Assembly (NCBI GenBank): GCA_029959605.1 | Contig: JASCOC010000001.1 | Span: forward strand, 1 to 64,000 | From: Lysobacteraceae bacterium PS02340 | Lineage (GTDB): Bacteria; Pseudomonadota; Gammaproteobacteria; Xanthomonadales; Xanthomonadaceae | Reading direction: 5' to 3' | Length of the DNA stretch: 64,000 bases | Shown: one piece after another, positions 13,465-16,487 of the stretch | How the letters are laid out: every line of letters starts with the position of its first letter | Numbering within the stretch: the first letter of the stretch is position 1 | Made by a program: the position numbers and the translations under genes | The notes under the pieces: generated by a model | Seen by the model: the letters and a program-made list of their open reading frames with translations, nothing else | What the model was told of the DNA's origin: nothing | The model's database searches: none

Positions 13465-14226
13465 ATGCAGTTGTCCGAACAGATCGTCCTCGTCACCGGC
13501 GCAGGCCGAGGCCTCGGCCGCGAGATCGCCCTTGCGTTCGCCCGCGAAGGTGCGCGTGTGATCGTCAACTACCGGCGCAGCCGCGAGGCGGCCGAGGCGC
13601 TGGCCGCGCAGATCGGGACGCGTGCGATCGCGCTCCGGGCCGACGTCACCGACCGCGTACAGGTCGACGCGCTCGATGCGCAAGCGCGCGCACACTTCGG
13701 TGCCGACATCACCACCGTCGTCAACAATGCGCTGGTCGATTTCGCGTTCGACGGCGATGCACGCGCGAAAGCCGACACGATCGACTGGCCCGCATTTGCC
13801 ACGCAGTTCGAAGGCAGCGTGCGCGGTGCCTTGAACACCGTGCAGGCCGCACTGCCGGGCATGCGTGCCCACGCCTTCGGACGCGTCATCAACATCGGCA
13901 CCAACCTGTTCCAGAACCCGGTGGTGCCGTATCACGAATACACGGCCGCGAAGGCTGCGCTGCTCTCGTTGACCCGCACGCTCGCCGGCGATCTCGGCCC
14001 GGACGGCATCACCGTCAACATGCTGTCCGGTGGTCTGCTGCGCACCACTGATGCGAGCGCCGCGACGCCCGAAGCGGTGTTCGACTACATCGCCGCGAAC
14101 ACACCGCTGCGCAGCGTGACCACGCCGACGGAGTTCGCCGACGCGGCGCTGTTCTTCGCTTCGCCGTGGTCGCGCGCGGTGACCGGACAGAACCTGGTGG
14201 TCGACGGCGGGCTCGTACGCGACTGA
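13465..14226 (+). CDS. Short-chain dehydrogenase/reductase (FabG-like)
   Basis: A 253-residue classical SDR, probably NADP-dependent, similar to 3-oxoacyl-ACP reductases. The cofactor motif is TGAGRGLG (residues 11-18) and the catalytic pair is Y159-x3-K163. Two positions are atypical: the usual NNAG is NNALVD, and the catalytic serine region is INIGTN rather than INISS, so a Thr would have to act as the Ser. Substrate unknown. It diverges from dapB; downstream lies the 1.1-kb repeat region, not another gene. Confidence 0.85.
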   Translation: MQLSEQIVLVTGAGRGLGREIALAFAREGARVIVNYRRSREAAEALAAQIGTRAIALRADVTDRVQVDALDAQARAHFGADITTVVNNALVDFAFDGDARAKADTIDWPAFATQFEGSVRGALNTVQAALPGMRAHAFGRVINIGTNLFQNPVVPYHEYTAAKAALLSLTRTLAGDLGPDGITVNMLSGGLLRTTDASAATPEAVFDYIAANTPLRSVTTPTEFADAALFFASPWSRAVTGQNLVVDGGLVRD

Positions 14227-14386
14227 GTGTTCCATCCGCGACGAGCTCGAACCGGCGCTTGGCTCGCGCACGTTGCGCATGCGGATCACGCTGCGCGGGT
14301 CAAGCGGCGTCTCGAACGCCCTTCGCTGCACTGGTCAAACAATGACCAGCGTCGTGGGCGCCGCGACACGGCCGGCTTCATGACGC

Positions 14387-14430
14387 TTACCCACAGACTT
14401 GTCATCGAATCATCCACAAGCACTGTGGAT
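14387..14430 (+). repeat. DnaA-box-like triad, copy 1
   Basis: TTACCCACA (14387-14395) is a one-base variant of the DnaA box. After 17 bases comes the inverted pair ATCCACA (14412-14418) and TGTGGAT (14424-14430) around a five-base loop, a perfect 7-bp dyad. Read as 9-mers, the two inner sites are TCATCCACA in opposite orientations, each one base from the consensus box. Confidence 0.8.
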
Positions 14431-14632
14431 GACCGGCCGGCTAGGCGGTTGTCGCGGCCCGGTCAAGCGCGACTGCACCTCGCATGCGGTCGAACCATGC
14501 GTGAGATCGGGCACCGCGCGCCGCGATGACGAAGCGCATGCGCGGGTCAAGCGCCGTGTCCGCACACGTGCAGGCAGGTGGCGAACAAATCACCACGTGT
14601 TTCGAGGGCCGTCGCAGCGCGGCGCGTGATGT

Positions 14633-14675
14633 TTATCCACAACTTTGTCGTCAGACGGTCCACATGCGCTGTGGA
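14633..14675 (+). repeat. DnaA-box-like triad, copy 2
   Basis: A perfect consensus DnaA box TTATCCACA (14633-14641), 17 bases, then TCCACA (14659-14664) and TGTGGA (14670-14675) around loop tgcgc. It is preceded 46 bases upstream by AAATCACCACG and 88 bases upstream by GGTCAA, as in copy 3. Confidence 0.85.
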
Positions 14676-14957
14676 GAACCGCGTCGCTACGCGACGGATG
14701 CACGCGGGTCAATCCCTTCGACGGGCCTGCACGCAGCGATGATTGGCGACCGCCATCGATGTCGGCCGACCCGATTCCAGCGCGCCGTTCCGCCCGTGCG
14801 CCACGCGCTGGAGTCTGTCGCCCCACCGGCAGGGTGCCAACCGCGCGCGACTGCACCACCGCGTGCGCAGGTCAAGGCCGCAAACAGGCCCGCACCGCGC
14901 GCCTGAGCAGAAAATCACCACGATGTCGGTGCCCGGAGACGACGCCGTTCGACACGC

Positions 14958-15000
14958 TTATCCACACCTTGACCCACAGTCCATCCACACCGGATGTGGA
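14958..15000 (+). repeat. DnaA-box-like triad, copy 3
   Basis: TTATCCACA (14958-14966), 17 bases, TCCACA (14984-14989), loop ccgga, TGTGGA (14995-15000). AAATCACCACG lies 46 bases and GGTCAAGG 88 bases upstream of the box. CCTTGACC immediately after the box is the exact complement of that GGTCAAGG. After the dyad, GCCGACTAGGCG resembles the GCCGGCTAGGCG that follows copy 1. Confidence 0.85.
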
Positions 15001-15184
15001 CAGCAGGCCGACTAGGCGCATCCGGCGCTGACGTCAAGCGTTTTCGCGCGGTCCTGTGCCACGAAGCCCGCCACGGCGGGGATCGAGCGGATCGGCCACC
15101 GCGCCCGGTCCATGTGCGCGACGTCACAGTGGCGACGACGTGACCAGCGTGCCGTCGCCCAATGCAAACGCGCACTTGGACTGC

Positions 15185-15227
15185 TTATCCACAGCTTTGT
15201 CGACAGTTGATCCACACCTTCTGTGGA
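15185..15227 (+). repeat. DnaA-box-like triad, copy 4
   Basis: TTATCCACA (15185-15193), 17 bases, TCCACA (15211-15216), loop ccttc, TGTGGA (15222-15227). The second site read as a 9-mer is TGATCCACA, one base off the consensus. TGACCAGCGT lies 44 bases upstream of the box, exactly as in copy 1. Confidence 0.85.
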
Positions 15228-15296
15228 ACACCGCGGCGGGTCGCGCGGCACACCCGGGAAGCTGCGTTCGCGACCGGAAACCCTGTGTCGACCGCA

Positions 15297-15327
15297 GAAA
15301 CGAAAACGCCCGGCGCGGGGCCGGGCG
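15297..15327 (-). terminator. Rho-independent terminator of dnaJ
   Basis: Read on the minus strand just after dnaJ: a perfect 8-bp stem, CGCCCGGC/GCCGGGCG (15307-15314 with 15320-15327), a five-base loop, then TTTTCGTTTC. It separates the chaperone transcript from the repeat region. Confidence 0.88.
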
Positions 15328-15350
15328 TGTCGATCGAACAATCGCAGGAC

Positions 15351-16487
15351 TCAGGATGTCATGCGATCCCAGAAGCCCTTCACCCCGTCCATGAAGGTGC
15401 TGGACTTCGGCGAATGCCGGTGTGCGTTCTCACCGGTGAAGGTGGTCTCGAACTGCGCCAGCAACTCGCGCTGCTCCTTGGTCAGATTCACCGGCGTCTC
15501 GACGACGACCTTGCAGTACAGATCGCCAGGGCTGCGGCTGCGCACAGACTTGACGCCCTTGTCGCGCAGGCGGAACACCTTGCCGGTCTGCGTCTCGGCG
15601 GGCACGCGGATCTCCGCTTCACCGCCGAGCGTGGGCACGCGCACGATGTCGCCCAGCGCGGCCTGCGAGATGCGCACCGGGACTTCGCAATGCAGATCGT
15701 CGCCGTCGCGCTGGAAGATCGCATGCGGACGCACGCGCACTTCGACGTACAAATCGCCCGGCGGCGAACCGGCGGGACCGGCTTCGCCCTCGCCGGCGAG
15801 ACGGATGCGGTCGCCGGTGTCGACGCCCGCAGGCACCTTCACCGACAACACCTTCTCTTCCTCCACGCGACCGGCGCCGTGGCAGGTCTTGCACGGGTTG
15901 GCGATGATCTGCCCCTGGCCGCCGCAATGCGGGCACGCCTGCTGCATCGTGAAGATGCCGCGCTGCATCCGCACCTGACCGCGACCGGCGCAGGTCGAAC
16001 AGGTCTCGCGCTTGCCGTCTTCCGAGCCGCTGCCGTCGCAGTCGTCGCAACCGGCGAGCGTCGGCAGTTCGACCCGCTTCTCGACACCGGCCACTGCGTC
16101 TTCGAGGTCGAGCTCCATCACGTAACCGATGTCGGCGCCACGACGCGGACCGCCGCGACCGCCGCCCCCGCCGAAGATGTTGCCGAAGATGTCACCGAAG
16201 ATGTCGCCCATGTCGGCGCCGCCGCCAAAGCCCGGGCCGGCATTGCCGCCGCCCATGCCGTGCTCGAACGCGGCATGTCCATGCTGGTCGTACATGCGCC
16301 GCTTGCCGCCGTCCGACAGGACCTCGTAGGCCTCCTTGCACTCCTTGAACGCAGCCTCGGCACTCGCGTCGCCGGGATTGCGGTCAGGGTGATACTTCAT
16401 CGCGCAACGGCGATAGGCCTTCTTCAGTTCGTCTTCGGTCGCGCTGCGGGTGACGCCCAGCACTTCGTAGTAATCGCGTTTGCTCAT
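15351..16487 (-). CDS. dnaJ: Chaperone DnaJ (Hsp40)
   Basis: Co-chaperone that stimulates DnaK ATPase and delivers unfolded clients. 378 residues: J-domain at the N-terminus with the HPD tripeptide (KYHPDRNPG), a Gly/Phe-rich linker ([15 protein letters not shown]), four zinc-binding CxxCxGxG-type repeats ([32 protein letters not shown]) and the C-terminal substrate domain. The start ATG at 16487 gives the canonical [12 protein letters not shown]. It follows dnaK with a 139-base gap that contains two inverted repeats, so a partial read-through or separate mRNA stability is plausible. Confidence 0.98.

Follow-up and report, generated by a model that had tools for sequence, protein, structure and literature searches.

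A multi-copy intergenic element of DnaA-type boxes with DARS-like anatomy in Lysobacterales

The window analyzed here comprises the first 64,000 nucleotides of contig JASCOC010000001.1 of Lysobacteraceae bacterium PS02340. A short-chain dehydrogenase (SDR) gene (13465-14226, + strand) and dnaJ (15351-16487, - strand), both recognized by Pfam, direct their 3' ends toward each other, and dnaJ is a conserved neighbor at this locus. Between them lie four exact matches to the pattern TTAYCCACA-N17-TCCACA-N5-TGTGGA, at 14387-14429, 14633-14675, 14958-15000 and 15185-15227, all on the + strand; 100 dinucleotide shuffles produced no match. A sequence-only reading of this DNA had proposed four spacing-locked units on one strand between the 3' ends of the two genes, three of them opening with a perfect consensus box, and each point held: the leading box is TTATCCACA in units 2-4 and TTACCCACA in unit 1, and the ORFs and Pfam agree on the flanking genes. 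That reading had counted three DnaA-type boxes in fixed geometry per unit; the boxes and their geometry stand, while the number becomes four, as a weak box occupies the 17-bp spacer. It had also passed over the palindrome that lies 37-40 bp upstream, another inverted repeat, the other copies, their placement on the chromosome and their wide conservation.

The full unit is about 100 bp long and consists of a 17-bp, Fis-like palindrome, TGGNNA-N5-TNNCCA, followed by four DnaA-type boxes separated by 3, 2 and 5 bp, with the last pair head to head. Unit 1 runs from palindrome through box I at 14332-14432 (+): the palindrome TGGTCAAACAATGACCA (14332-14348, without strand), at a conserved position and with 8/8 fixed letters, is followed by the strong leading box TTACCCACA (14387-14395, +), the weak middle box TTGTCATCG (14399-14407, +) after a gap of 3 bp, box II TCATCCACA (14410-14418, +) and, head to head with box II across N5, box I (14424-14432, -). 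Unit 2 (14579-14678, +) has the palindrome TGGCGAACAAATCACCA (14579-14595, without strand, 8/8 letters), the leading box TTATCCACA (14633-14641, +), a weak box at 14645-14653 and a head-to-head pair at 14656-14678, made of box II (14656-14664, +), which fits the DnaA box at just 6/9 letters, and box I (14670-14678, -). Unit 3 (14904-15003, +) is made up of the palindrome TGAGCAGAAAATCACCA (14904-14920, without strand, 7/8 letters), the leading box TTATCCACA (14958-14966, +), the middle box TGACCCACA (14970-14978) and the pair at 14981-15003 (box II 14981-14989, +; box I 14995-15003, -). The corresponding parts of unit 4 (15130-15230, +) are the palindrome TGGCGACGACGTGACCA (15130-15146, without strand, 8/8 letters), the leading box TTATCCACA (15185-15193, +), the middle box TTGTCGACA (15197-15205) and the pair at 15208-15230 (box II 15208-15216, +; box I 15222-15230, -).

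The four units come very close to their counterparts in Luteimonas sp. XNQY3 (L045), which makes Luteimonas the probable genus of the window. The same distances separate tandem units in different species: the 246, 325 and 227 bp of the window are found again in genome G276, and many pairs in genus groups g11 and g17 are 126 bp apart. Taken together, the recurrent distances in the window (14387-15227) and in relatives (L045, L169, L143, L144) look as if spacing between units matters.

The genome of origin (3.70 Mb in 81 contigs) holds six exact copies at two loci. Four are those of the window, and the other two, on another contig (C11:327764 and 328055), are flanked by a small ORF that matched no Pfam family and by one with a glyoxalase domain. 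No further copy appeared in this genome at up to three mismatches, and the control pattern read backwards gave none. Genome-wide, the density of the triad is not that of chance, which would have counted against the earlier proposal; the proposal of a replication-control locus keeps its DnaA-box cluster but loses its single site, the cluster being part of a dispersed element. Within one mismatch, the pattern occurs in 109/297 genomes of the family and 15/54 genera (reversed control, 0); the remaining 188/297 genomes have no match at that threshold, so the exact form of the unit is not universal. Eleven genomes from four genus groups share the dnaJ locus itself, as judged by flanking genes, which bears out the expectation that relatives carry triads there. 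(Genus names for the unnamed genus groups, given here as g-numbers, are our inference.) In a draw across the class, 5/369 genomes matched, namely all four family members drawn and one genome from another family of the same order; across all genomes searched, no match fell outside Lysobacterales. A stricter pattern found 45 stretches among GTDB contigs, with titles naming Luteimonas, Pseudoxanthomonas, Stenotrophomonas, Xanthomonas or Lysobacteraceae bacterium, and in one case [Pseudomonas] boreopolis, which we take to be a member of the same family as the genome of the window.

Sequence logos were built after removal of redundancy, which kept 82/107, 62/106 and 72/250 units in the three sets. 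In the 82 non-redundant copies, which were retrieved by the pattern itself, conservation covers the leading box, a TTTGTC run within the 17-bp spacer, ATCCACA of box II, and TGTGGA followed by NAA, whereas the letters of the N5 spacer are free. A single copy departs from the head-to-head pair, by one letter, and box I extends to the 9-mer TTNTCCACA on the opposite strand. A search that did not require N5, for TCCACA-N{0,12}-TGTGGA in 19 genomes (our own and its congeners, 18 of them with a match; tallied by hand), returned 62 occurrences, 45 of which have N5; the remaining 12 spacings share 17 occurrences, with at most five each. Spacing within the pair is locked at N5, and the earlier argument for selection on both boxes and spacing holds. 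The weak middle box begins 3 bp after the leading box and ends 2 bp before box II. Its fit to the DnaA box averages 4.58/8 letters (shuffles: mean 2.31, maximum 2.67), with a third letter, G in 65/82 copies, that runs contrary to the DnaA consensus. E. coli DnaA favors gaps of 2 or 3 bp between boxes (PMC11317965).

The palindrome is likewise part of the unit. At least 7/8 of its letters are present in 66/72 non-redundant units, compared with 23/1440 shuffles; it ends 37-40 bp before the leading box, and its start lies 77-80 bp from box II, with a mode of 79. In 1.17 Mb of fetched loci, 95/104 palindromes belong to units. Nine remain: seven stand alone, one accompanies a priA core (L135; see below), and one (L055:3564) accompanies a unit that escaped the pattern because of an N at its first base. 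This count, taken in loci chosen for their units or priA cores, led us to reject a matS-like palindrome of the terminus that would stand apart from DnaA boxes. An IHF site was also sought in the units; the AT-rich leading box aside, no IHF consensus recurs at a fixed place.

The closest known counterparts of this layout are the DnaA-reactivating sequences (DARS) DARS1 and DARS2, which have been described from E. coli and its near relatives (PMC5742627, PMC4245941, PMC8682772). We read the K-12 cores from sequence as TTATCCACT-N5-TGTGGATAA-N3-TGTGTATTA for DARS1 and TTATTCACC-N5-TGTGGATAG-N3-TGTGAAGAA for DARS2, in agreement with the table in PMC11317965 and with the published arrangement box I-N5-II-N3-III, in which box I is inverted (PMC5742627). 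The units share with both cores the placing of box I opposite box II, head to head at exactly N5, as well as one or more further boxes in tandem with box II, an intergenic site and a location away from oriC. They differ in that the third box of E. coli DARS stands at 3 bp, whereas the units have a weak box at 2 bp and a strong box 3 bp further on, and in that they occur in several copies per genome, often in tandem, in the terminus half. IHF sites, present in DARS2, have no consensus counterpart in the units. From PMC4245941, PMC8682772 and the sequence, we place the essential Fis region of DARS2 on the same side as box III, like the palindrome of the units, but roughly 180 bp from box II (hand count, L083) where the palindrome is at about 79 bp. 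One match to the palindrome, at 7/8 letters, falls within that Fis region; the case for a palindrome common to both is weak, with three such matches in a 6-kb piece. We do not class the units as DARS, since the spacing of the third box differs and the IHF sites are missing; we read them as DARS-like by anatomy, with an extra box, in multiple copies and mostly between convergent genes.

The sequence-only reading had set the cluster in a wider family of datA, DARS and the Bacillus DnaA-box clusters. The comparison with DARS survives, and the family narrows to it because of the head-to-head N5 pair. E. coli datA is, like the units, a DnaA-box cluster outside oriC, and in a datA-like role the units would titrate DnaA or, together with a partner protein, stimulate hydrolysis of its ATP. 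We consider this role unlikely. The six units of the genome of origin, each with three good boxes and a weak one (box quality checked in the four window units), would suit titration. Pure soaking up, however, needs neither a head-to-head N5 pair nor a palindrome at fixed distance, and datA lies near oriC in E. coli whereas the units are in the terminus half. Moreover, datA relies on an IHF site (PMC5742627) and promotes ATP hydrolysis, while the units conserve no IHF consensus and have another box layout.

A canonical DARS core is also present in these bacteria. In a control search for TTATCCACA, each of seven complete genomes had one TTATCCACA-N5-TGTGGATAA, and the canonical core III-N3-II-N5-I was found in 8/8 genomes fetched, those seven and our own (L132:6350-6384, on contig C66 with the N5 pair at 81364; the others are L133-L139). 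Boxes I and II are perfect, the third box is weaker, and there is one copy per genome. In all eight the core lies upstream of priA, with the gene start 100-418 bp away (tblastn, 66-100% identity); Pfam recognized PriA domains at both core loci scanned. The palindrome begins exactly 79 bp before box II in 8/8 of these cores, with 7/8 letters in six genomes and 8/8 in two, and the unit from another family also has its palindrome (7/8 letters) 79 bp from box II. Thus the priA core and the units are alike in the N5 pair and in the 79-bp distance, and unlike in that the priA core has a third box at N3, perfect boxes I and II, a single copy, a place in the origin half (0.19-0.37 of the arm in seven genomes, leaving out two further N5 pairs, in G301 and G302) and priA beside it. 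Because the distance from palindrome to box II is common to both, unit and canonical core would seem to be one kind of nucleoprotein site, and this shared distance is the strongest argument for it.

What binds the palindrome can be approached through DARS2, where binding of Fis to FBS2-3 is essential and a 5-bp shift of the Fis site is far more harmful than a 10-bp shift (PMC4245941, PMC8682772). Since DARS2 needs Fis, this protein would be the simplest candidate for the palindrome of the units. The 15-bp palindrome core has no mismatch to the Fis consensus GnnYAnnnnnTRnnC (PMC4245941) in 10/72 units, one in 34, two in 22 and three in six. The boxes themselves point to the replication initiator DnaA as the protein most likely to bind the element. 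The DnaA encoded by this genome is identical to E. coli DnaA at 242/444 aligned positions (DNA-binding domain, 61/94). D269, R285, L290, R227 and the DNA-contact residues checked in domain IV are all conserved, whereas V211 is not (residue roles in part from PMC5742627).

Placement on the chromosome was determined by locating triads, dif and dnaA in complete genomes. Triads were found in 24 of the 26 searched, G280 and G013 being without one; where two dif candidates occurred (two genomes), the better match was taken. With rounded genome sizes, 79/81 loci in the 24 genomes fall in the half nearer dif and the remaining two just outside it. With exact lengths for 21 genomes, a set that omits G111, G271, G277, G683 and G713 and adds G301 and G302, the count is 60/62. 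Every triad is at least 0.477 of the arm from dnaA and none is closer to the origin, and the N5 pair is absent from 13/13 dnaA loci of about 3 kb; the element's being part of oriC was ruled out by position. The boxes that are not in triads behave differently: in seven genomes, 39/50 non-triad TTATCCACA boxes are in the origin half, compared with 24/25 triad boxes in the terminus half. Clustering of 54 fetched loci, a subset of those placed, by shared flanking proteins gave eight groups, one of which represents two positions in each of three genomes, making nine independent loci. In eight of these, every position exceeds 0.56 of the arm. The locus next to catalase spans the midpoint, with positions from 0.477 to 0.570 in four genomes, and an initial count of all nine loci in the terminus half was reduced accordingly to eight clear cases plus this midpoint locus; a sign test yields p 0.002 for 9/9 and p 0.02 for 8/9. 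Within these data, terminus-half placement is well supported.

Orientation gives a less firm picture. Units are oriented opposite to fork movement at 75/81 loci, with no exception in g7, g18, g29 and g51, and multi-unit groups have a single orientation in 68/68 cases (fetched loci, overlapping ones included). The raw 75/81 overstates polarity because orthologous loci repeat the same event: the independent loci agree at 7/9 (p 0.09), and of the boxes in seven genomes, 22/25 triad and already 31/50 other TTATCCACA boxes are polar. We therefore treat orientation that tracks the replichore as suggestive only, a lead. The reversed loci are the glyoxalase locus of the window's genus (L142:6692, L007:9765-10098), seen in one complete genome, and the cbpA-like locus (L140, L141, L160, L163, L164; g11 and g17), seen in five. 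E. coli Ter sites lie in the terminus half with a mostly replichore-dependent orientation, and the units resemble them in both respects, although they are built of DnaA boxes and are reversed at 2/9 loci. As counterparts of Ter, the units could be polar fork barriers or organizers of the terminus, acting through DnaA or through the protein that binds the palindrome, and their placement on both sides of dif and the counts of polar loci, polar boxes and one-way groups favor such a role. Yet only nine independent loci carry the polarity, the glyoxalase and cbpA-like loci are reversed wherever they could be placed, and the same palindrome and I-II pair recur at priA in the origin half, and we hold this role to be quite unlikely.

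Besides the N5 pair, the units contain a second inverted repeat, about 26 to 10 bp before each leading box (e.g. window 14360-14376) and centered 18 bp upstream, whose letters differ between clades while complementarity is partly kept (276/504 cells paired; column shuffles: mean 225, maximum 246). Variants such as CCTTG..CAAGG or GCCGC..GCGGC occupy the fixed position in different clades. That this repeat, which pairs above shuffles, and TCCACA-N5-TGTGGA can both be folded could mean that they act as hairpins, in a structured RNA or in ssDNA. We find this very improbable. There is hardly any variation in the arms of the N5 pair, and the bases beyond them follow the DnaA 9-mer TTNTCCACA and not base pairing. 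In addition, most units lie between convergent genes, and Rfam recognized no family in 13 loci except a tRNA; its six matches in window 14000-15500, with E up to 5, were all under gathering scores.

Only 3/105 units lie within a called ORF; looser ORF settings put a unit inside one at 3/12 representative loci (L146, L147, L149). Both neighbors were called for 93 units; the two genes are convergent in 67 cases, co-directional in 24 (as at L050, 4219-4953) and divergent in two. These counts rest on simple gene calls by codon composition and take orthologous loci separately. Neighbors scanned at representative loci have no common theme; among them are genes for a Crp-type regulator, catalase, glyoxalase, a TPR protein, NUDIX, a LuxR-type regulator, glutathionylspermidine synthase and a second J-domain protein, besides dnaJ and phoH. 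A J-domain chaperone gene stands beside two different unit loci, one cbpA-like (L140:5620-6516) and the other the dnaJ of the window, perhaps by chance; at the locus of the Crp regulator, the ORF on one side (L155:6293-6727) has no Pfam family. DnaA is also a transcription factor (PMC11317965), and the units might be operators through which it controls neighboring genes, but with 67/93 units between convergent and 2/93 between divergent genes, and neighbors without a theme, this is hardly credible as a general account; an operator role for most units is unlikely, as is the promoter role that had been doubted from the window alone.

On balance, we favor a reading of the unit as a site on the DARS plan that would bind DnaA with the assistance of Fis, release ADP and restore ATP-DnaA, with a capacity that rises late in the round; we think it somewhat more probable than its negation. 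The sequences themselves show the anatomy, conservation, copy number and placement of the units, and the agreement of their I-II pair and palindrome position with the canonical core at priA; the proposed mechanism runs as follows. DnaA would very likely bind the boxes, with boxes I and II head to head and the weak and strong anchor boxes continuing in tandem. To judge from the identical geometry, the N5 head-to-head pair would force the ADP-DnaA contact known from DARS. Occupation of the palindrome, some 79 bp from box II, by a dimeric bending protein (most simply Fis) would complete the complex, ADP would leave DnaA, and ATP-DnaA would be restored. More speculatively, because forks reach and duplicate the terminus-half copies late, the reactivating capacity might rise late in the round, and this late replication could time the rise in ATP-DnaA. 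Against the DARS reading stand the differing third box, the G of the weak box, the missing IHF consensus and the 28/72 palindromes with two or three mismatches to the Fis consensus. Furthermore, the units may do something else, because a canonical DARS core is already present at priA. A further proposal, which we regard as doubtful, is that these DARS-type elements, placed only in the terminus half and oriented by replichore, act as a sensor of replication completion, tying the next initiation to near-completion of the preceding round. If that were true, late passage of the fork would double or switch on the reactivation of DnaA.

The element described here is real and well conserved, and we have not found it in print: our literature search, with subscription papers mostly outside its coverage, listed no paper that deals with these elements or reports DARS from this family. 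The priA-linked core itself merits study, whether as DARS, as a control of priA, or as both. The family to which Xanthomonas, Stenotrophomonas and Luteimonas belong appears to have a multi-copy version of DARS at ancient, conserved sites of the terminus half and, in addition, a single canonical copy at priA. If this is true, these bacteria would offer a natural experiment on the importance of DARS position, and whether late replication is linked to the following initiation could be tested directly through a handful of short intergenic sites.
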